A stretch of 64,000 nt of DNA. It comes from Pseudomicrostroma phylloplanum. Its lineage: Eukaryota > Basidiomycota > Exobasidiomycetes > Microstromatales. The stretch lies in NCBI GenBank assembly GCA_039545275.1, contig BCHS01000016.1:248001-312000 (forward strand). Reading direction: 5' to 3'. Below, piece by piece: positions 4,335-19,789 of this stretch (position 1 is its first letter; each line of letters starts with the position of its first letter). Position numbers and translations under genes: made by a program. The notes beneath the pieces were generated by a model. That model saw only the letters and a list, made by a program, of their open reading frames with translations, was not told where the DNA came from and ran no database searches.

Positions 4335-4662
4335 GCTGGGTATGCTACGATGTATACTGATGGAGATCGAGACAAGACGGCGGAAAGAGCCCTTGCCTGC
4401 CTCTGTACGGATTGTCAATCCCATCACCACTGCCCCTCCCCCCGGCCTCGGGGCCAGAGCAGGCGGACGGGCGGACGAGCGGGGGCGGCGCGCGCAAGGC
4501 CCTGGCTGCCTGTGTGAGCCGTGTGCGTGTGTGGGTGTGCATGTCTGGCGTTGCCAGCCCGTGCGTGGGTCAAAGCGGTTCTTCTCGTCACTGCGACTGG
4601 TCAGACTACTACTCCTGCCGCTGCTACCCATCTACTCACCTCACAGCATTCAGAATCGAGAG
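4335..4662. promoter_or_regulatory. Bidirectional promoter between complex I subunit and WBP1
   Basis: A 328-bp gap between two divergent start codons. It holds a C/G-rich block (about 4437-4505) and a TG-rich block (about 4511-4570). The 24 nt at 4521-4544 recur exactly at 6886-6909 upstream of KRE6. No TATA box was identified. Confidence 0.55.
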
Positions 4663-6268: not shown

Positions 6269-7571
6269 CGGGGGGAGGGGGCAATGAAACAACTTATGTG
6301 TATGTACATAGAGAGAGATTGCAGGGATGTTAGGCCCTTGCACTGGTCGGGTGTTGCTTGCGAGGTCGAGAGTGAAGAGGGGCACCGGCACTAGACGTGA
6401 GGGGTATGAGCACAATGCAAAACTTCCCGATGCTTGACATTCTCCAGTGATCTGGCCTCTCGGGATTGTCGCAAGTAGATTCCATTCTTCCACCAGCCCC
6501 TTCCTCCTCCTCCTCGTGACTGGCCATCGTTGTGAGTAGTACCGACAGCTGCTATCACCCTTCCTTCCTTCATTCCTCCATTGGGCCACTCAACCTCTTG
6601 CCTTCTTCGCTCGAAGACGCGGAACGCAGCGAGCGAGGCAGGTGCATCCACGTGGCTGGACAGAGGCAGAGGGCGAGGGTTCTGGGCTATCCCGGCGTCT
6701 GAGTGCAAAAGGCAGCCGGGTCCCACGTCAGACACGCACCGCACACCCAAGCACACAAGCACATGAACCCTCGGCCGCTCGGCTGCCCTGCCCGCCCCCG
6801 CCGCGCCACGCCCTGGCCCTCCCCCCTTGGGTATTTTTGCCCCCCCCTTTTGAGAAATTGCACTTGCGCGTGTGGGTGTGTGGGTGTGTGCGTGTGTGGG
6901 TGTGCATGTGTGCGGAAGTGCGTGGGCAGGGCGCGGGTGAGTGGCCGGCCGGCGCAAGGGCATCGCATCGCATCGCCTTGGACAGACAGAGATCCTTTCA
7001 GCTGAGGGAGCGTAGCGTACCGCCAAAGGGCAGCAACTATCGGCCACTTTTCCTCTCGTCACGTTTCGACTCTGCCCATTGCAATCTCCATCGACATCGC
7101 CATCGCCATCGCCATCCTCCTCGTCACACATACACCACACCAACATCAACACCTTCCGCCGTGTTCCCCCTCGAACCCCCCTTCCTCTTTGTTTCTTCTT
7201 CAGAACGGTCGCGCATCGCTACGCTGCCGCCCCTTCCCTTGCTTGATAGGGAAAGGAAGGTCTTCCAGTGCAGCGCACTCGCAAACACCCGCTGCCAGCA
7301 CTAGCAGCACCTCACGACCAAACCCTTACTAGACGCTTCTCGACTTTTTTTCCTGTACATATCGGGTGTCTTACCCTCAACCAAGGACCGTCTTCCGTTA
7401 CACGTTTCCCTGCAAGCAAGAAGCGAAGTTCCCGCAAAAGCCGCGCTTACACCCTCATCACACGAGGGCGTATAGGAATCTCTCTGCTTCCCTTGCCAAG
7501 TTCCGCTGCATTCCCTCCAGCCGGCCGCACAGCGTCACATCCTTTCCACTTCCTCGTCCACCCTACATACC
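6269..7571. promoter_or_regulatory. Intergenic and 5' region upstream of KRE6
   Basis: 1.3 kb without a supported gene. A poly-C/GC-rich block (about 6776-6848) and a TG-rich block (about 6870-6935) resemble those upstream of WBP1. The last 300 nt are pyrimidine-rich with short tracts, as expected of a 5' untranslated region. Open frames here are low-complexity and overlap on both strands. Confidence 0.5.
6886..6909 (+). repeat. TG-rich 24-mer, second copy (first at 4521-4544)
   Basis: These 24 nt (GTGTGCGTGTGTGGGTGTGC then ATGT) are identical to 4521-4544. Both copies sit in TG-rich blocks next to C-rich blocks upstream of secretory-pathway or cell-wall genes. A shared factor-binding element is possible, but simple-sequence convergence is not excluded. 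Confidence 0.6.
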
Positions 7572-9818
7572 ATGTCGGGATCTTCCAACGGCTCCGTCAT
7601 CGGGTCCGACACTCACCTCCCTTCCTCGGGAGCTGGGTATCACCCCGCGGATCACTCGGGCTCCTCCTCGGTGTATGGCGCTGAACAACGTCTGCTAAAC
7701 AATGGAGGCAGCACAACGGACAATTCTCAAGACGGGTTTTACTCCCCTTCGACGCCCGGTGGAAGGTTCTCGCTCAGGGTGAGTTCGCAATACGGGGGAT
7801 ACTCGTGGCGGCGGCGGCGGCGGCGGGGCGGATGATCATGTGTGCTCACAATTCCCCCACCGTCTACCGTCCTCTTTCTCTCTCTCTCTCTCCCTCTCTC
7901 CCAGCGTCCGACTCACCGAGTGGCTTCCACCAGTGGCCGATCTACTGGCATCCCGGCCTTGAGCGAGAAGCTCAACCCTCGGGGCAACACGACCAATGGC
8001 ATGCTCGGCCCAGTGGACGGCACAATTGGCAGTACAACCCTGGCTGAGAGTGGAGAGTACAGTGGAAAGAGCAATTATGGCCCAAGCGGAAAGGACCTGT
8101 ATGCCATTGCCGCCAATCCCTTTTCGTGGGACACAAAGGACGGCCAGCCCGAACCGGATGACTTTCTGCATGACCCCAAGGACGAAGGAAGGGGATCGTG
8201 GCTGGCAGGCGGGTTTCCCATTCGAGCCCTGTGCAACATGGGCGTCCTCTTCATCCTCATTGCCGGCATCCTGATGCTCTTTGCAGGCTACCCCATCATC
8301 ACTGCCCTGAGCAACAAGTCCGACACTACCAAGGGCGGCTTCAACCTGGGTGGAAGCAACGCCTCGGGTCAAATTGCAGCATTCACAGGAATGAGGACTG
8401 GCTTGATCGATCCCGACACACCCGCCTCTGCCCTCACAACTACGTCCATGGTCGACGGCAGTACCATGAACCTCGTCTTCTCCGACGAATTCAACACCGA
8501 CGGACGATCCTTTTACCCCGGCGACGACCCCTTTTGGGAGGCAGTAGACCTGCACTACTGGGGAACCAACAACTACGAGTGGTACGACCCTGCCGGCGTC
8601 ACCACTGCCGACGGAGCCCTGCAGATTACGCTCAGCCAGCACGAGGAGCACAATCTCAACTTCCGCGGTGGCATGCTCCAGGGCTGGAACAAGTTCTGCT
8701 TCACCGGCGGCTACCTCGTCGCCTCTGTCAGGCTGCCCGGAGCAGCCGATGTACCAGGTCTATGGCCAGCTTTCTGGACGCTGGGCAACCTCGGACGCGC
8801 GGGTTATGGTTCTACTCTGGAGGGTACGTGGCCCTACTCGTACGACGTGTGCGATGTGGGCACGCTGCAGAACCAGACGTTTGTCAATGGCACGCCCACC
8901 TCGGACCAGATCGGTGGTGCAGTGGGCTTCAACAAGAAGCACAATTACAATTCGCTGTCTTTCCTCGCCGGTCAGAGGCTGTCGGCATGCACTTGCCCCG
9001 ACGACGACCACCCGGGACCTCTGTATTCCAATGGTACTCGCCGGGGTCGCTCTGCTCCCGAAATCGACGTCTTCGAGGCCCAGTCTACCGGTGCAGAAAT
9101 TGAAGTCTCGCAGTCGGCTCAGTGGGCTCCCTTCAACGACCTCTACCAGATCAAGAACACAACGCTCGGCTACGAATTCTACCAAGAGGGACAGTTCAAT
9201 ACCTACACTGGAGAAATCACCCAGCAATCGACGTCGGGTGTGATCGTGGCGAATCAAAGGGCCGTCGAAAAGGGAGGCGACGGGTCGTTTTCCGAGTATG
9301 GCTTCGAGTACGAGCCTGGACCCGAGGGCTACGTCCGCTTCGTCTCTGGCGGCGCGCCGTCTTGGCACATCTACCCCTCCGTCAATGATCCTGACCCGAT
9401 TTCGCAAATCTCCAGGCGGAGCTTCCCAATGGAGCCAATGTACATCATCTTCAACTTGGGAATCTCGCAAAACTTTGGTACCCCCAACTGGGACGACCTC
9501 ACCTGGCCCAACACCATGTCCGTCGACTGGGTGAGAGTCTACCAAAAGCCAGGAGAGGAAAATGTAGGCTGTGACCCCCCGGACTTCCCCACCGCAGACT
9601 ACATTGAGCGTCATGCCGAGGCGTACAACAATGCCAATCTCACCTTGTGGGGTGGTACGGCGGAAGAGGGAGGGTATGGTGGGTACTGGCCGAGGAACAG
9701 TCTCAACCCCAATGGATGCGATGCCGAGCTTAGCATCTACCCCGGAAGCCCAACGGTCGAAAAGGCAAAGGCAGTGTACCGTGCTTCGGGCGTCGCATCC
9801 AATTGGAACAGGGCATGA
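7572..9818 (+). CDS. KRE6: KRE6/SKN1 family beta-1,6-glucan synthesis protein (GH16-like)
   Basis: Two exons, 7572-7778 and 7905-9818, 706 residues. The intron runs GTGAGT to CTCCCAG (phase 0), contains a (GGC)n run near its start, and joins RFSLR to RPTHRV. The N-terminal about 178 residues are Ser/Gly-rich and cytosolic in family members. One membrane span lies near residues 179-201 (NMGVLFILIAGILMLFAGY), giving a type II protein. The lumenal domain is GH16-like: LVFSDEFN, GLWPAFWTLGNLGR, and the catalytic-type motif EIDVFE with acidic residues near 455, 457 and 460. Near the end are the family's GISQNFG and VDWVRVYQ blocks. Known role: Golgi/ER membrane proteins needed for cell-wall beta-1,6-glucan. 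KRE6 and SKN1 cannot be told apart here. Confidence 0.93.
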
Positions 9819-11716: not shown

Positions 11717-12388
11717 ATAGACATACTCTCAATCACGATTGACGAGTACATTGACCTCACTGCATCCTCCCCTGCTGCAGAGGCGCCAGGTGCGAGGGAC
11801 TCGTCTACTCTTCAAATTGCCTTGGCCCAACCAGTCTTTCCTGCCCTCGCTGCACCGCTCCCACCACTGTCTGCTCCCCTCGACCTGAGGTGGAATGCCG
11901 AAGCTGGAGTTGGCAAGCGCACATACGCCGCCAAGCATATCGACCCGAAGCATGCCATTGGCAGTGCGAGAATCACCAGCTTTTTTGGTGGTTCTGGGTC
12001 TGGTGATTCTGGGGGTAAAGCTACTCTTCCACTGGCCTCTGGATCTGGCTCGCGCCTCCCTTCCGGCTCTCAACGTAAGCTTCCCTCTGTGGCTCTGCCT
12101 CCTGCCGTTGCTGCTGGGCAGCGTAAGCCGCTTGCCCTGCTCAAGTCGAGGTGGAACGCAGCAGCCGAAAATGCAAGAAGGCAGCCGAAGGAGCTCAAAG
12201 GACCCAAGAACCCCAAGCAAGCATTGTCTCTCGAGAGCTCCTCGAGCAACAGGAGCCTTGAACACTTCTTTGGCCAACCTGCATCTAGGCCCCGCTCTGC
12301 TTGGACTTCTGGCTCTGCGTCTGGCTTGGCTCTGCTCGCAGCACTCTATGCTACTGTGTGGACAGACGAACGTCGTACGCTGGGATGA
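11717..12388 (+). pseudogene. Tandem-family N-terminal module, copy A1 (5' end unclear)
   Basis: Open frame from a splice-acceptor-like site (CATCGCAACAG, ending 11716) to TGA at 12388, with no in-frame ATG near the start. The product parallels the next gene: IDEYIDLTASSPAAEA, then LRWNAEAGVGKRTY, HAIGSARITSFFGG, GSGSRLPSGS, a basic ARRQPKELKG stretch and SLEHFFGQP. IDLT next to acidic residues looks like a SUMO-interaction motif. ARITSFF has the spacing of a PCNA-interacting (PIP) box without the leading Gln. The end differs from copy A2 and looks truncated. The family is unknown to me. Calling it a pseudogene is a judgement: it could be the last exon of a gene starting upstream (GTGAGT near 11637). 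Confidence 0.45.
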
Positions 12389-12470
12389 GCATTGTTGTGC
12401 CTACGGATCTACCATAACCACTCATACTCATTGACACTTACCCCACACACTGAAAGACTTGCCTCGCAAC

Positions 12471-13079
12471 ATGACTGATGAATCGGTCGACCTCACCGCC
12501 TCCTCACCGGCCGCAGAGGCACAGGATGCCAGGGATTCCTCTCCCTTCCCCGAGGTTCTACCTCAACCAGCCTCCCCTAACCCTGCCCCTGCCCCCGTCG
12601 CCCCTCCCGCCCAGCCTGCTCCCCTCAAACTGAGGTGGATTGACGAAGCAGGCGGTGGCAAGCGCACCTACAAGGCGCGCCACATCAAGGCGGAGCACGC
12701 GGTGGGCACGCCCAAGCTCCTGGCATTCCTTGGACGCTCAACAGCGCAGCACGCTGCCTCGCCCGTGGCCTCTGGTTCTGGGTCCCGGCTTCCCTCTCGC
12801 TCGTCGACCAAGTCTCCCTCTCTGGCGTTGCCTCCCTCTGCTGCTGCTGGGAAGCGGCAGCCACTCCTGCCTCTGAAAGCGAGGCTGAATGCCGCCGCTG
12901 AGACTGCGAGAAGGCAGCCGAAGGAGCCCAAGGGGTCCAACCAGAGCAAGCAGTCAGGAGGCCAAAGTCTGCTGCATGACTTCTTCAACAAGCTCAACTC
13001 TGCCTCTGCTTTTGCTTCTGGGTCTGGCTCTGCATCTGGCTCTACGTCTGGCTCTGGCTCCGCTCCTGGAGATGGTTGA
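12471..13079 (+). CDS. Tandem-family disordered protein with SIM-like and PIP-box-like motifs, copy A2
   Basis: 202 codons from ATG at 12471. It starts MTDESVDLTASSPAAEA (SUMO-interaction-like VDLT at residues 6-9), then a Pro/Ala-rich stretch. LRWIDEAGGGKRTY follows at about 54-67, then HAVGTPKLLAFLG, Ser/Arg-rich linkers and a basic ARRQPKEPKG. QSLLHDFF at residues 165-172 exactly fits the PIP-box pattern Q-x-x-L-x-x-F-F. The tail is a (Gly/Ser/Ala) repeat. No catalytic domain is present. The reading frame just after the stop continues the family's next segment (see 13072-13780) shifted by one base. So A2 may be the detached N-terminal half of a longer ancestral protein that carried the GIY-YIG domain. 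Function is unknown; the motif reading is inference. Confidence 0.55.
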   Translation: MTDESVDLTASSPAAEAQDARDSSPFPEVLPQPASPNPAPAPVAPPAQPAPLKLRWIDEAGGGKRTYKARHIKAEHAVGTPKLLAFLGRSTAQHAASPVASGSGSRLPSRSSTKSPSLALPPSAAAGKRQPLLPLKARLNAAAETARRQPKEPKGSNQSKQSGGQSLLHDFFNKLNSASAFASGSGSASGSTSGSGSAPGDG

Positions 13080-13780
13080 GCTTCGTCTTCTCCGAATCAA
13101 CTGGGTCGTCAAGGATGGAAGACTGGTCGGTGGAACCAAGAGGGTTGCCAGGGAGGATGCCGAGGAGGCTCCTGTCCTGAAGAAGGCCAGGCTGGAGGGA
13201 GAAGCGAGGTGAGTTTCTATCGACACTGGCATTGCACTTCGACGGCATCCCTATTGACCTAAACAGCACAACGCCCATCACATTCCTGCTTTTGACCAGC
13301 AGCAAAGGACCTGTCAAGAACACCGAGAGGGAGCGCTGCGTCGCGCAGCTGGCCAAGGCAATCGACTTTGTGCGGAACTTACCTCGCCACAGACTGTGCA
13401 GTGCTGCTCAAAGGCACTGGGGCAGCTGCACCTCGCTCGTCCTTGCCCAGCTGGCTGTCGGGAAAATGTCGGATGAAGCTGTCAAGGCTTTTCTGACTCG
13501 AGGAGCCAGCGTGCTCGAAAACAACCCTAACTCACAAAGCGGCAGCGGCCATCACGGCCCGGGCTTGTATCTTCAGATTGTCGGAGGCCTTGTCCCGCCG
13601 ACGGTATACGTTGGAAAGAGCGATGTAGATGTTCATCGTCGCCTAGTATCCTGGGTCCATACGGTCAAGAAGGTGAAGGAAGGAACGCACAAAGGCTCTC
13701 CGCCCGCCATTGCGAAGGCGCGTGCGGACCGTTCTGCAGGCAGGATCGGCGGCGGGCAAGCGAAGGGATGCCAGGGATGA
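13072..13780 (+). CDS. GIY-YIG nuclease-like protein, truncated copy B1
   Basis: Two exons, 13072-13208 and 13300-13780, 205 residues. The ATG overlaps the end of copy A2 in another frame. Exon 1 encodes a basic, nuclear-signal-like stretch (GGTKRVARED, VLKKARLEGE). Exon 2 has a His/Cys-containing region (residues 76-90), then NPNSQSGSGHHGPGLYLQIV. GLY at 134-136, VYVGKS at 148-153, Arg at 159/160 and His166 match the GIY-(x10-11)-YIG...R...H signature. The usual C-terminal Glu region is lost, because at about 13735 the copy runs into the start of the next one and ends GGGQAKGCQG. It is probably inactive as it stands. No known fungal family could be assigned. Confidence 0.5.
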
Positions 13781-15054
13781 GGCCTCGGAGGCTCCTGCTC
13801 TGGAGAAGACCAAGGTTGGAGAACGAAGTCAGGTGAGTCTCTTTCGACGCTGACACTGCACTTCAACGGCATTCCTACTGACCATATGCCCCCTTTCCAC
13901 CCATCTTTGATCAGTAGAGCAACCAGTGCTGAGAGAGATACCTGCTTCGCGAGTCTGGCCGAGGCCATCCACTTTGTCAGAAATCTGTGCGGCTACTGGC
14001 TGTGTCATGGCGTAAAGGAGCATCGGGGCCGGTGCAGCTCTCGCTCTCTCGCTGCCCTGGCAGTGGCGAGACGAGGGCAAGCAGGCAGTCCTGACCCGAG
14101 TAGCAAGCACGCTCCGAGACAATCCCAACTCGCAAAGCGGGCATGACCACGACGGCCCTGGTTCTATCTACAGGTGGTCGGCAATGCAGCTAGAACAACG
14201 ATGTACGTCGGCAAGAGCGACGTCAGCGTCCGGAAACGCCTTCGCACCTGTCAGAGCACTGTCAATGCGGTCCAGGCCGGAACGTACAAGGGGAATCCGC
14301 CATTGATAGCTCAGGCGCGCCTGTCTGCGACAGCGACGAGCTTCGCTGCCCTCGCGCTCCTTCCTCTGCCCTCAGATGGAGGTCGGTACACAGAGATACA
14401 TCGCGCGCTTCTCAAGATCCCCGAGGACAAAGACGACGAGCGGGGTACGGACCTCTTGAACACCTTCTGCTCTTTGATGGAGGCTGCCTTTATTGCCTTG
14501 TTTGGCACCTGCCAGCAAGCCGAAGATTACATGCGAGCATGGCGGGTAGTCTTCGGCGAGAATATGGCCGAGATTGCCAGAGCCAATGTCCAGACGGGGA
14601 TTCAAGGCAATCACCAAGCGACGCGTCACCTGCGTCACTTCATCCGCGACGAAAAGCTAACGCTCCGACGCCGAGCCTACCTAGAAAGAATCGGGACCGA
14701 CATATGGTACAGAGATGGGCGAGGAGAGTCGGTCCTGGTGGGCCGTCAACAGGCTACCCTGCAAGCCTTCGTGGACCTTCATCTCAAGCGCAGCAAGACC
14801 ATTAATGACGCTGTTGTGAGCTCTTAGATGGACATCGCCATTTGCAGAGGCGATGACAAGAAGGTCGAAGCTCCCATCGTCCTCAGAGTCGAACACATGC
14901 GAGACAAGAGCAGAGACAGCTGGGTTGCCTATTGGCGTAACCCTCACGCCGCTCAAATGCGTATCCCAGAAGCAACGTGCAAGGACTTGGAGATGAAGCT
15001 CGGAAAGTCTTACCGGATGGAGCTCAAATTCGAGTCGGAGTCGCCTGCAAGCAT
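13745..15054 (+). pseudogene. GIY-YIG family, decayed copy B2
   Basis: It parallels B1 from the basic stretch (GKRRDARDEASEAPALEKTK), through an intron starting at 13833 that is strikingly like B1's, into the nuclease-like domain. The frame breaks twice relative to B1: 5 nt lost near 14085 and 1 nt lost at GGCCCTGG/TTC near 14163, with a TGA between them. After that it is open. MYVGKSDVSVRKRL is followed by an unknown domain (FCSLMEAAFIALFGTCQ, FIRDEKLTLRRRAYLERIG, WYRDG) to TAG at 14825. The paralogous codon in copy B3 is CAG. The same frame continues past the TAG with the family's next domain (MRIPEATCKDL, MELKFESES). The 14174-14827 stretch could still be expressed if an internal start is used. 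Confidence 0.5.
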
Positions 15055-16388
15055 GGTCTCGCAAAGTAAAGAAAGTCAGAGAAGGAAACTAGAAGGGTCG
15101 CGCGCCATTGATTGCCCAAACACGCAACCATCCTCTGGCCACAACCTTTGCAGCTGTTTCGCTGCTCGCCCTACCCCAAGAAGACTCCTAATATGTGGAC
15201 ACTCATCGTTGAAGGCCTGCCGAAAAGGGGCAGTTGAGGCAGAGCCGGCCCTTGACCTGAAGAACACACTCTGCTCCCTGCTCGAGGCGGCCTACATCGC
15301 CGCCTTCGGTACCTGCCAAGTCGAGCAGCCAGGATATATCAAGGAATGGGAGGATACATTTGGATCTGAAATGTTCAAAGTATCCGGGGCAAACAAGGAG
15401 ACCGGGATTGGGGGAAATTTCGAATGTACGTATGTACGCGAGTACGTTCGAGACGAGAAGGTGCAGTTGCGCCACCGCGCCTTTGTGGAGAGAATTGGGA
15501 CCGAAGTGTGGTATCAAGACGCTCAAAGCCAGCGCGTTCTGGTAGGTCGCGGCTACGATAATCTCAAACTCTTTTTGCAGAAGCATACCAAAAAGAACAC
15601 GGCCATCAACGAGGCTCTCGTAGCAGCCCAGATTGCGCTCGCCTTCCGACAGGACAAGGGCAAGAGTGCAGAGGCTTCTGCGATCCTCAAGACTGAGGTA
15701 TATCAAACCCGCTATGGCTATTATTTCGTCGCGGCTTGGCCAACGCCATTTCACAGTCGGATGACAATTCCGTCTACGATATGGCAGGAGTTGGGGCTCA
15801 AACCTCAAGGAGGGTCCTTGTTGGAGCTTCAATTCGAGTCGGAGGACAGCTGGTGGCCCTTCCAGCGTATGACCGACTCGGAAGCGAAGCTGGTGGAAGG
15901 GACGGTCGCTCTGCTCCGCGCCGTGGACGCTTCGACAGGAAAAAAAGTCGGAGTGGGTCCGCTTCCGCTCGCTCGCTCCATCCGAAGACTGGACACAGCT
16001 GCATCGAGTAGCTCGACAGCTGCGTGAGAAGTCCAGTGAAGTGTCCGGTACCGGCGCAAAAGCGAAGGACACCAGGGAAGGTCAGCACGATGGGGGGAAG
16101 AAGGGAGAGGATGAAGTCGAGGCTGAGGATGAGGATGAGGATGAGGATGAGGGTGAGGATAAGGAAGAGGGTGGAGACGAATCACAGGACGACGAAGAGG
16201 AAGCAGACGAAGACGAGGATGAGGACAAGCAGCAAGACAGCAAAAGGGCCAAGAGCGATAGAAAGAACAGCGATCGCTCGGAGCCACTGCACCAGGATGT
16301 CTCGCCAAGGCAGTCACTCCCCTTCAGAAGGATTCTCGAGACAATACGGAGGGGCAGCTACTCCACCAAGTTCCTGTTGAGGCAGTAA
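15055..16388 (+). pseudogene. GIY-YIG family, decayed copy B3 with acidic tail
   Basis: It begins inside the nuclease domain, after the GIY and YIG motifs. The first part (KKVREGN, APLIAQTRN, TFAAVSLLALP) carries three stop codons between about 15095 and 15215. From about 15250 the unknown middle domain is intact in one frame (TLCSLLEAAYIAAFGTCQ, YVRDEKVQLRHRAFVERIG, WYQDA, TAINEALVAAQIAL). The C-terminal domain follows (MTIPSTIWQELGL, LELQFESED). At an A7 run (15940-15946) the sensible reading moves to another frame: SEWVRFRSLAPSEDWTQLHRVARQLREKSSEVSG. This leads into a long Asp/Glu tract (about 16110-16230), a basic SKRAKSDRKNSDR stretch and the first third of the D domain. Confidence 0.5.
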
Positions 16389-17869
16389 GACCAGCAGCTC
16401 ACCGTATCGACAATGTAGAAGACTTTTCGGAAAGCGGACGACGGGTAAACTCGATCACTCGCCTGCCCTTCACCGCGCTCCCGGAGGCGGTCCGAGACGG
16501 TCGGGACACCGTCGACTGTCATCGAGTCTTCCTTCATGCAGATGCCACTCGCTTGAAGTTCCTCATCAAGAAAGAGGCAGGCCTTACGGAGCGACCCGAT
16601 CGGGCCCTGTTTAAGCCAGTGACGGCTCGCGGGAAGGGACTCAACAACATTCTGGGTGCTCTCGCTAGGCTGAACGAAGAGGAGCGGCGCCCTGTCCCGG
16701 CCAAGATCACTCTTCTCCAGGCCAAAACGCTGGCCAATTTCAAGCTGCTGCTGGTCAGTGGGCTTGAGAACGATGGCACCCTGCGCATATTCGGCGTCAA
16801 GTGCAAGGCGCCCCGCAGCACAAGGAGATCTGCCAAAGGCATGCGATGGCAATGGCGTTACCAGTGGGAGGAAGAGAAGCTGGAATCGCGAAGGGCCGGC
16901 AGCTCCGCGCGGCAGCTAGAAGACGAGGCTATCGAGGAAGAAGATGCGGCCCACGCCGAACAACCAGAAGGGCAAGAAAGCGACAAAAAGAACAGCGGCA
17001 ACGACAACACACGAAAGCGACTTACGCTAGGGTTCCGACAGGTGTTCGAGACGCTGGGGAGGGGCACGTACTCGGCGCCAATTACTCACAGGGGGACGGC
17101 CATATGGACGACTGTCACTGCCCCCGGCGCAAGGGTCTCCACCGGCAAAAGCCTGAGGCACAACGTCACCATTCCGTCCATTGCTGTGCCTCAAGCAATA
17201 CGAGAGGGTACAGACCCTGCAAGCCTCTACAAGATCTTCTTGTGGGGAAGAGGGACTGAGATGAAATATTACATCAAGAAGGGGCCCGCCCTCACGGAAC
17301 GTCCCGACCGTAATCTCTACCGGACATTGGCGGTTCCTGGTAGGCCCGTCCACAAGATACTGAGCTGCATAGCGCTGCTTGATGGACAGGAGCTCTTCTT
17401 CGCCTCCTCTCGGCCAGATTTATCAAGGGTCGCTCCGAAGACATTGAAGGTCTTGGAGCGACTCCTAGCCGGCGAGATCGAGAATACTGGGACGCTCTCG
17501 GTCTTCTCTACGCACTACACCGTTTCTAAGGGGTCTGCACCAAAGGATTCGAAGTGGCAGTGGTGGTTCGATGCTGCGACGGAGCAGCTCCACTCGCGTA
17601 GGGCTGGGACCTCTCAATGGGAGGTGTGGAACAAAAATGACTCCGTCAGTGTGCTCACCAGCAAGTGCAAGGAGTGGTTGGCAGCGGGAGTGCTGAGTGC
17701 ATCGCAAGGACGGTCGACGGCTGGTGGGGAAGGTAATGGTGGGCAAGCTGAGGGAAGCGGTTCGAGCAAGGGCAAGAAGACGACCAACAACGATGAAAAG
17801 GGAGCAGAGGGGGAGCCGGCACCGGCACCGAAGCCCTCCAGGAAAGGAAAAGCGAGGATGTTGGACTAG
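16223..17869 (+). CDS. Tandem-family C-terminal part with two copies of an unknown domain (D1, D2)
   Basis: Open from 16223 to TAG at 17869 without an ATG until 16841, so the start is uncertain. It is probably the continuation of the preceding copy, joined by a frameshift near 16370. D1 reads LPFTALPEAVRDG, FLIKKEAGLTERPDR, a GKGLNNILGALARL helix, GLENDGTLRIFGVK, WQWRYQWEEEKLESRRAG. D2 (about 17030-17620) repeats the pattern: FRQVFETLGRGTYS, IPSIAVPQAIREG, YYIKKGPALTERPDR, PVHKILSCIALLDG, GEIENTGTLSVFS, WQWWFDAATEQLHSRRAG. An acidic, charged linker separates them. The tail is Gly/Ser/Lys-rich and basic (PSRKGKARML). I do not recognise the domain; its Trp-rich strands suggest a compact beta fold. 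D2 looks intact. Confidence 0.45.
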
Positions 17870-18006: not shown

Positions 18007-19789
18007 TCACGCATCGAGGGTGCTGACTGCGACGTCGCCTGTACCACTCTTCTTGATCTCACCTACATGGTCTCCGGCACTCTCCTCGTCACCCCACTGT
18101 CCCTGGGCACCACCTGCCGCCCCACCAGCGACAATCCCCTGTCGCAGTCGATCCTCGGCGTCTTTCTGCTTGATAGTTCCCGTCTTGCCGAGCACAAGCC
18201 AAGGTGTCTCCTCAAAGTACATGTCCATCTCCTCTAGCGAACGACCCTTTGTCTCTGGCAAGATGGCCCAGAAGGTCAGTGCGTTGGTGAAGCCACAGAT
18301 TGCGAACAAGAGGTAGAAGCGCCACTGAGAAGTCGCGAGTGCCTTGGGCGTAATTTGCCCTATCATGAAGTTTGAAATCCAGCAAGACATGGCCGCCAGC
18401 GCTGATCCCTTGGCTCGCAGATCAGTGCTGAGAATCTCCACAGGGATGGCGAATGAGAGTGGACCGATGCCAGCGCTGAAGAAGAAGTTGAAGATCCAAG
18501 TCATGGCTACGAACGTCCTTCCGGCACCTACGTTGAAGACACCGGCGTCGGTGGGTGGGAACAAAGCCTGCAGGATGATGACGACGATGAATGTGGATCC
18601 AACAGCCACGTTGCACCAGATAAGCGGCAGACGTCGGCCAAGCTTGTCAACGAAGACGATACAGGTAATCTCGCCGATAATGGCGATGATGGAGTTGATC
18701 GACTGCAGCAGCAGTGTCTGCTCCGTCCCAAAACCAAATCCTTTGAAGATAGCAGGAGCAAAATATTGTATGGCCGAGACACCCGTCATTTGCACGCTGA
18801 ACTGGAGGATGATACCGATCATCACCTTGCGGAAAGCTTGCTTGTCGGTCACGAAGCGGGACCACTTCGCCGTATGCTTTTGCTCCTGCTGGACCGCGGC
18901 TTTGATCTCCGCCAGCTGTGAGACAACGAAGACGTCGGTCTCATCGCCTGAAGCATGCAGACGAGCCAAAGAGCGGCGAGCATCGTCGTCTCTTCCATGA
19001 GCCACAAGCCATCGGGGGGACTCCGGGAAGAGGAATATGAGGACGGCAAGCGGTACCGCAGGCGACAGCTGCAGCGCAAGCGGGAACCGCCACTCAAAAG
19101 TAGTACCAGGGTGGTTGCGAGTGCAGCCATACACTACGAAGGAAGCCAGAAGAGCACCAATGCCCAAGAAGAATTGTTGCAGAGTCGTGAGCCGACCACG
19201 GATGGAGGGATGAGCAATCTCACTCTGATATAGCGGTGCGAGGACTGTGAGGCCACCTATGCCAAGGCCAGCACAGAACCGCCCGGCGAGCCTGGCGGAG
19301 TTTCAACACGGCGGAATCAGCACAACTAAGATGAGGCCTGCTTGCTGCTTCCAACCGCTCGACTGAGAACTCACATCATGCCGCGGTTCATGGCACCAGT
19401 CTGCAAAGATCCTCCAAGGAGGAAGATAATAGCAAAGGTAAGGATGGCCGCCCTCCTTGAGAATTTGTCGGCTACAAGCGCAGCAGGCACTGATCCGCAG
19501 AGGGCTCCGAGAAGCATAGAGGAGACGATGAATCCGGTGTAGTCGGCGGAAGGATTGTCCATGCGGTCCAAGAAGGCCGGTGCGACGATTACACCGGCGA
19601 TGACGCCCAAGTCGTACCCATAGGTGACGGAGCCGAGGCTGCAGTCAAAGGGGGTGTCGTAATGGATCAGCTTTGGACCGATAGACGAGCCATTCCGATC
19701 CGACTTCTCAAACTTTCGCTGACGACTGAGCCTACTCACGCTGCGAAGCAGCCGCACAGAAAGGTGTAGACTTTGGGTGGAAGAGTCAT
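18007..19789 (-). CDS. MFS sugar transporter (sugar porter family)
   Basis: Three exons: 19740-19789, 19375-19638 and 18007-19291, 532 residues. Both introns have GTGAGT donors and CAG acceptors, and phases agree across MTLPPKVYTFLCGCFAALGSVTYGYDLGVIAG. Sugar-porter signatures are all present: GYDLGV in helix 1, DKFSRR after helix 2, RFCAGLGIGG, LYQSEIAHPSIRG, PESPRWLVAHGR, QFSVQMTGVSAIQYFAP, DKLGRRLPL, GPLSFAIPVEILS, and PETKGRSLEEMD at the cytosolic end. Twelve spans are expected at the plasma membrane. The substrate is not readable from sequence; the divergent GH51 arabinofuranosidase 675 bp away suggests pentose or arabino-oligosaccharide uptake. Confidence 0.93.

Follow-up and report, generated by a model that had tools for sequence, protein, structure and literature searches.

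The GIY-YIG superfamily is defined by its GIY and YIG motifs, a central Arg and a C-terminal Glu. The parts of PMC1564403 compared here catalogue its families with their fused domains, including homing endonucleases, among which the domain is common, and Slx1, where it is followed by a C-terminal RING. The closest parallel in kind to what we report comes from plants: in the compared part of PMC6585611, the EFFECTOR OF TRANSCRIPTION (ET) factors are lineage-specific nuclear GIY-YIG proteins that carry their own DNA-binding repeats; one tandem copy, ET3, is a truncated pseudogene. Here we analyzed 64,000 nucleotides from the fungus Pseudomicrostroma phylloplanum (contig BCHS01000016.1, here C16, positions 248,001 to 312,000; hereafter the window), in which an earlier note had proposed a tandem array of an undescribed GIY-YIG nuclease-like family. 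Taken as a whole, the locus is probably the decaying remnant of three head-to-tail gene copies for a nuclear GIY-YIG endonuclease-like protein, and the family to which it belongs is real: uncatalogued, many-copy and equipped with extra domains of its own. Its architecture is absent from the same parts of PMC1564403, the compared part of PMC4469406 concerns mitochondrial introns and none of the paper titles listed mentions a comparable GIY-YIG family encoded in fungal nuclei. Whereas the ET repeats are Cys-rich and zinc-binding in the compared part of PMC6585611, the fungal modules are, by eye, not Cys-rich, and we claim no relation between the two.

Motif set and predicted fold agree on the GIY-YIG assignment. 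As previously noted, the first unit of the array (B1) has GLY, 11 residues, VYVGKS and then Arg, all within open frame 13181–13780, and the second (B2) has YVGKS and Arg in frame 14147–14827, where we also found a Glu helix (LMEAAFIA). The His reported at GIY-YIG spacing in B1 did not hold up: the conserved position, four residues after the Arg, is Trp in B1 and Cys in B2. Among ten aligned domains, both Tyr residues and the Arg were invariant and the Glu was present in eight, the other two (B1 and C1c) being truncated. A pattern chosen after the alignment was seen, GxY-x(9-14)-Y[IV]GK-x(5-7)-R, matched once in the window's six frames (B1) and at seven further places in ten other stretches, with no match in 50 shuffles of all translations (15.4 million residues). 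The predicted structure has the GIY-YIG fold. This fold and the Tyr-Tyr-Arg-Glu set are common to the catalytic domains of I-TevI, T4 EndoII and UvrC, although identity in structural alignments is 14–23% and, unlike these enzymes, the fungal family is nuclear-encoded and multi-copy, with a helical module before the domain and three unmatched modules after it. Against PF01541 (gathering threshold, 22.6 bits), the C2c paralogue scored 23.8 bits in a genome scan, 22.2 when isolated and 19.9 when whole, and the window units had no match in a Pfam scan. In PDB sequence searches, C1a had no match under E 0.7, and neither P0001, a database relative, nor the larger alignment A5 had any at E up to 10.

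The family locus spans ~11.7–17.9 kb of the window on the plus strand (Table 1), in the order N-terminal exon (twice), B1, B2, B3, acidic linker and accessory modules 2 and 3 (twice). The array does lie at 13072–16388, where it had been placed, but N-terminal exons upstream and C-terminal modules downstream make the real locus larger. B1 consists of the helical module and the first half of the GIY-YIG domain; B2 of the helical module, the GIY-YIG domain and accessory module 1; and B3 of the second, Glu-bearing half of the domain and accessory module 1. From mid-domain, B1 is fused directly to the upstream part of B2, whose accessory module 1 contains an in-frame stop and is cut off where it joins the GIY-YIG middle part of B3, itself in another frame and with stops. 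In no window unit do all the catalytic residues stand in a single uninterrupted frame. Given these truncated units, frame breaks and stops, the previous description of at least three head-to-tail copies with nested truncations is confirmed. A nuclear location also stands, because the 456-kb contig carries ordinary nuclear-type genes.

SUMO-interacting motifs (SIMs), PCNA boxes and nuclear-localization signals (NLSs) direct proteins to SUMO, PCNA and the nucleus, respectively. Each of four N-terminal exon segments (two from the window, two from C1) has a SIM-like (V/I)DLT near its start and three have an LxxFF box, with the canonical PCNA-box Gln confined to window copy 2 (QSLLHDFF) and the strict KR-x12-KKAR-like basic pattern to one of the four. 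Shuffles equalled the motif counts in 0.1–6% of cases, for patterns picked after the sequences were seen. These features suggest a nuclear location and possible PCNA or SUMO tethering for the C1/C16 clade only. A search of the genome with exon copy 2 listed five places, two of them within the window locus; a match on C10 (E 0.003) was dropped as doubtful.

Table 1 Features of the GIY-YIG family locus in the window.
Feature	Position	Strand	Basis
N-terminal exon copy 1 (SIM-like IDLT, two LxxFF boxes)	11738..12223	+	tblastn of copy 2 (54.5% identity, E 4e-36); motif counts
N-terminal exon copy 2 (SIM-like VDLT; PCNA-box-like QSLLHDFF)	12474..13079	+	open frame 12435-13079
Basic NLS-like piece KR-x12-KKAR, before intron-like gap	13135..13208	+	translation, by eye
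Intron-like GTGAGT...CAG, joining NLS-like piece to B1 in frame	13209..13299	+	sequence alone, by eye
B1 helical module, preceding GIY-YIG	13300..13501	+	tblastn matches with the helical modules of C1a, C17 and C2c (E 3e-10 to 4e-6)
N-terminal half of B1 GIY-YIG with GLY, YVGKS and Arg, cut short ahead of Glu	13502..13738	+	alignment, tblastn, pattern search
Upstream part of B2: another NLS-like piece, an intron-like gap (13833-13914) and a helical module interrupted by frame breaks	13739..14155	+	blastn, translation
B2 GIY-YIG (Tyr, YVGKS, Arg and Glu present; His replaced by Cys; Gly of GIY outside frame)	14156..14566	+	tblastn to C1a GIY (49%, E 1e-35); alignment
B2 accessory module 1, stop 14825-14827, end cut off	14573..15040	+	tblastn
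B3 remnant of the middle of GIY-YIG, in a different frame interrupted by stops, without GIY or YIG	15012..15239	+	tblastn
B3 Glu half of GIY-YIG	15242..15376	+	tblastn, 64% to C1a
B3 accessory module 1	15380..15901	+	tblastn, E 1e-22
Acidic linker	16080..16280	+	translation
Accessory modules 2 and 3, first copy	16322..16906	+	tblastn
Accessory modules 2 and 3, second copy	16982..17761	+	same open frame (16262-17869) as first copy

The accessory modules had been described as matching no familiar nuclease, and our searches agree. Pfam scans of members yielded no family at or over cut-off for these modules, with weak matches below it only (the lowest E outside GIY-YIG was 0.0096, for Msg2_C), and NCBIfam gave no match at E up to 0.1 for any of seven proteins. 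An AlphaFold model of the relative P0002 (556 aa) had a mean predicted local distance difference test score (pLDDT) of 53.7, with good confidence only at about residues 271–415, corresponding to accessory module 1; Foldseek and VIA-align returned nothing usable for this model, and we do not take the accessory-module fold as new. PHROGs gave single-member matches only (the best, to the unnamed phrog_9869, at E 1.8e-4 for one of 12 members; weaker ones, at E 0.29 and E 0.25, to a homing endonuclease and an endonuclease family, respectively), which were not used as evidence.

The family is also distinct from Slx1 and MUG113/T5orf172, as proposed; both exist as other genes in the genome. Slx1, likewise a nuclear fungal GIY-YIG protein, is encoded on C20, where PDB SLX1 chains match at E 1e-20 to 7e-18; these chains had no match at E up to 10 for C1a or profile A3. 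Neither SLX1_C nor RING was found in C2c, C17 or C3 at E up to 10, an insensitive search in which the real C20 Slx1 scores 15.4 bits for SLX1_C (E 0.024), under the cut-off. The GIY-YIG-related MUG113 and T5orf172 families are represented by a different gene at C17:244 kb (G000:C17:242972-246064, L046), whose product is over the PF10544 and PF13455 cut-offs; members matched neither model at E up to 1, and a PF10544 genome scan found C17:244 kb only. That protein has a long low-complexity N-terminus. Penelope-like and homing GIY-YIG enzymes have the catalytic motif set in common with the fungal members, but Pfam scans of the latter showed no reverse transcriptase (RT) or NUMOD. The family represents a third nuclear GIY-YIG lineage in a fungal genome, besides Slx1 and the MUG113-like gene.

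Members or fragments were found on six contigs of the 17.1-Mb genome: C1 (several at 2.03–2.06 Mb), C2 (12 kb, 1.363–1.370 Mb and 1.87 Mb), C3, C15 (37 kb), C16 (the window) and C17. Three are single open frames from stop to stop, C2:12100-14094 (665 aa), C3 (787 aa) and C17 (786 aa), which makes tests of activity, localisation and knock-out practical. The recurring order is helical module, GIY-YIG and accessory modules 1, 2 and 3, with the N-terminal exon added in the C1/C16 clade. The C1, C2 and C16 arrays form a natural series for how nuclease genes duplicate and die. Beside the C1 cluster lies an internally repeated ~1.3-kb sequence (G000:C1:2048031-2049332, L010/L011; 65–77% between copies), and within the cluster an imperfect palindrome of ~120 bases (80%; G000:C1:2052827-2052947). 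On C2, upstream blocks before two members (G000:C2:1362231-1363136 and C2:9779-11868) are 69–81% alike and may be a common first exon or promoter.

Three protein-database searches, each scoring only the ~7990 candidates sharing most words with the query, so that more relatives may exist, recovered at least 12 relatives: eight from 'lgn' sources, three from 'jgi' sources and one from Microstroma glucosiphilum (Microstromatales). The last, P0007, is a predicted protein in which a fragment of accessory module 1 is fused to unrelated repeats of SGLDANEQARTLGTATVRGSAEQ; its first part resembles G000:C8:33.5 kb. Because its best match to this genome is 77%, M. glucosiphilum is probably a relative of the window's species. 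No relative turned up when viral contigs were scanned with P0004. In a tree of 17 rows (leaving out C1e, which is partial, C1c, B1, C2b, P0004, P0006, P0007, P0009, P0010 and the C15 fragment), B2 and B3 grouped with P0011 and P0012 (100/99; B2 with P0012, 94/92), C17 with P0001 (100/99), and C2a and C2c with P0002, P0003, P0005 and P0008 (100/99). These groupings suggest that the main clades predate divergence from the database sources.

Synonymous differences (pS, 0.53–0.84) exceeded non-synonymous ones (pN, 0.13–0.48) in 14 of 14 paralogue pairs, a truncated half-domain pair included, which indicates that selection acted on the protein over most of its history; synonymous distance (dS) was >1.8 or infinite in 13 pairs. 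The earlier note had suggested a selfish element, a defence factor or conflict-driven decay. Its account is upheld as to fold, modules and truncated tandem units, but nothing found here demonstrates these roles. If the nuclease made the cuts for a homing or transposon-like element, so that the gene spread and arrays were left behind, the superfamily's frequent use in homing endonucleases (in the parts of PMC1564403 compared) and the occurrence of members or fragments on six contigs, one lying ~12 kb and another ~37 kb from a contig start, would fit. However, the copies are old (33–77% amino-acid identity in 14 pairs), and blastn similarity between loci follows mainly the coding modules, apart from the upstream blocks of the two C2 loci and local repeats on C1, as would be expected of gene duplication. 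No transposase or RT occurred among four open reading frames (ORFs) flanking the window locus or ten beside fetched loci, one of which (C11) is a doubtful member whose match (63 residues, E 1.5e-4) was dropped. Eight of the ten match ordinary Pfam families (transporters, peptidase, ELP1, tubulin, GH127, phosphatase and oxidoreductase) and two match none. Nor were NUMOD, RT or terminal repeats seen in Pfam scans, blastn or flanking ORFs; target-site duplications were not searched for. We regard an origin in such an element as quite improbable. That the nuclease is the effector in a system of genome defence, allorecognition or drive, where conflict makes it diversify and decay, is unlikely too: the marked divergence, the many degenerate copies, the accessory modules without matches and the few relatives found would suit this reading, but there is no antidote or partner gene, substitutions conserve amino acids, and pN is below pS in every pair, which at this depth gives no hint of positive selection.

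Loss of the conserved His in five of the ten aligned copies, of the Glu half in two and of the Gly of YxGK in one could mean that the fold is kept as a catalytically dead scaffold for binding DNA or protein, yet paralogues of divergent clades keep Tyr, Tyr, Arg and Glu together and seven places match the full pattern, leaving this reading very doubtful. Equally hard to credit is that the window holds no pseudogene array but one working multi-exon gene with internal duplications. The intron-like sequence does connect B1 in frame with the piece that follows N-terminal exon 2, and the modules of the C1 array are similarly ordered, a half GIY-YIG domain preceding a complete one; against this stand the frame breaks and stop of B2, the stops in the middle part of B3 and the fusion of B1 mid-domain into the next unit. 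Moreover, the C1 half unit is nearer its own neighbour (60%) than B1 (48%), so the common order looks recurrent.

Under the preferred reading, a decaying array of nuclease genes, tandem duplication would make copies, which unequal recombination or deletion inside the arrays would then truncate. Judging from the active-site set, active members may nick or cut DNA through the Tyr-Tyr-Arg-Glu centre, with the accessory modules perhaps positioning the nuclease on DNA or chromatin, and in the C1/C16 clade the N-terminal exon may send it to the nucleus, perhaps to PCNA and SUMO. Together with the nuclear features, this suggests DNA cleavage directed by lineage-specific modules as the putative function. 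A bolder version, which we hold to be a long shot, would have Microstromatales-specific, PCNA/SUMO-tethered nuclear GIY-YIG nucleases with new DNA-targeting modules cutting in genome conflict or defence, and hence repeatedly duplicated, diversified and broken in arrays.

The locus is bordered on the left by a SKN1/KRE6 gene (ORF 7842-9818) and on the right by a sugar transporter gene (18007-19302, minus strand). By eye, two similar GT-rich tracts (GTGTGTGGGTGTGCATGT) lie at 4520-4550 and 6870-6910 of the window, upstream of the OST48-like and KRE6-like genes.
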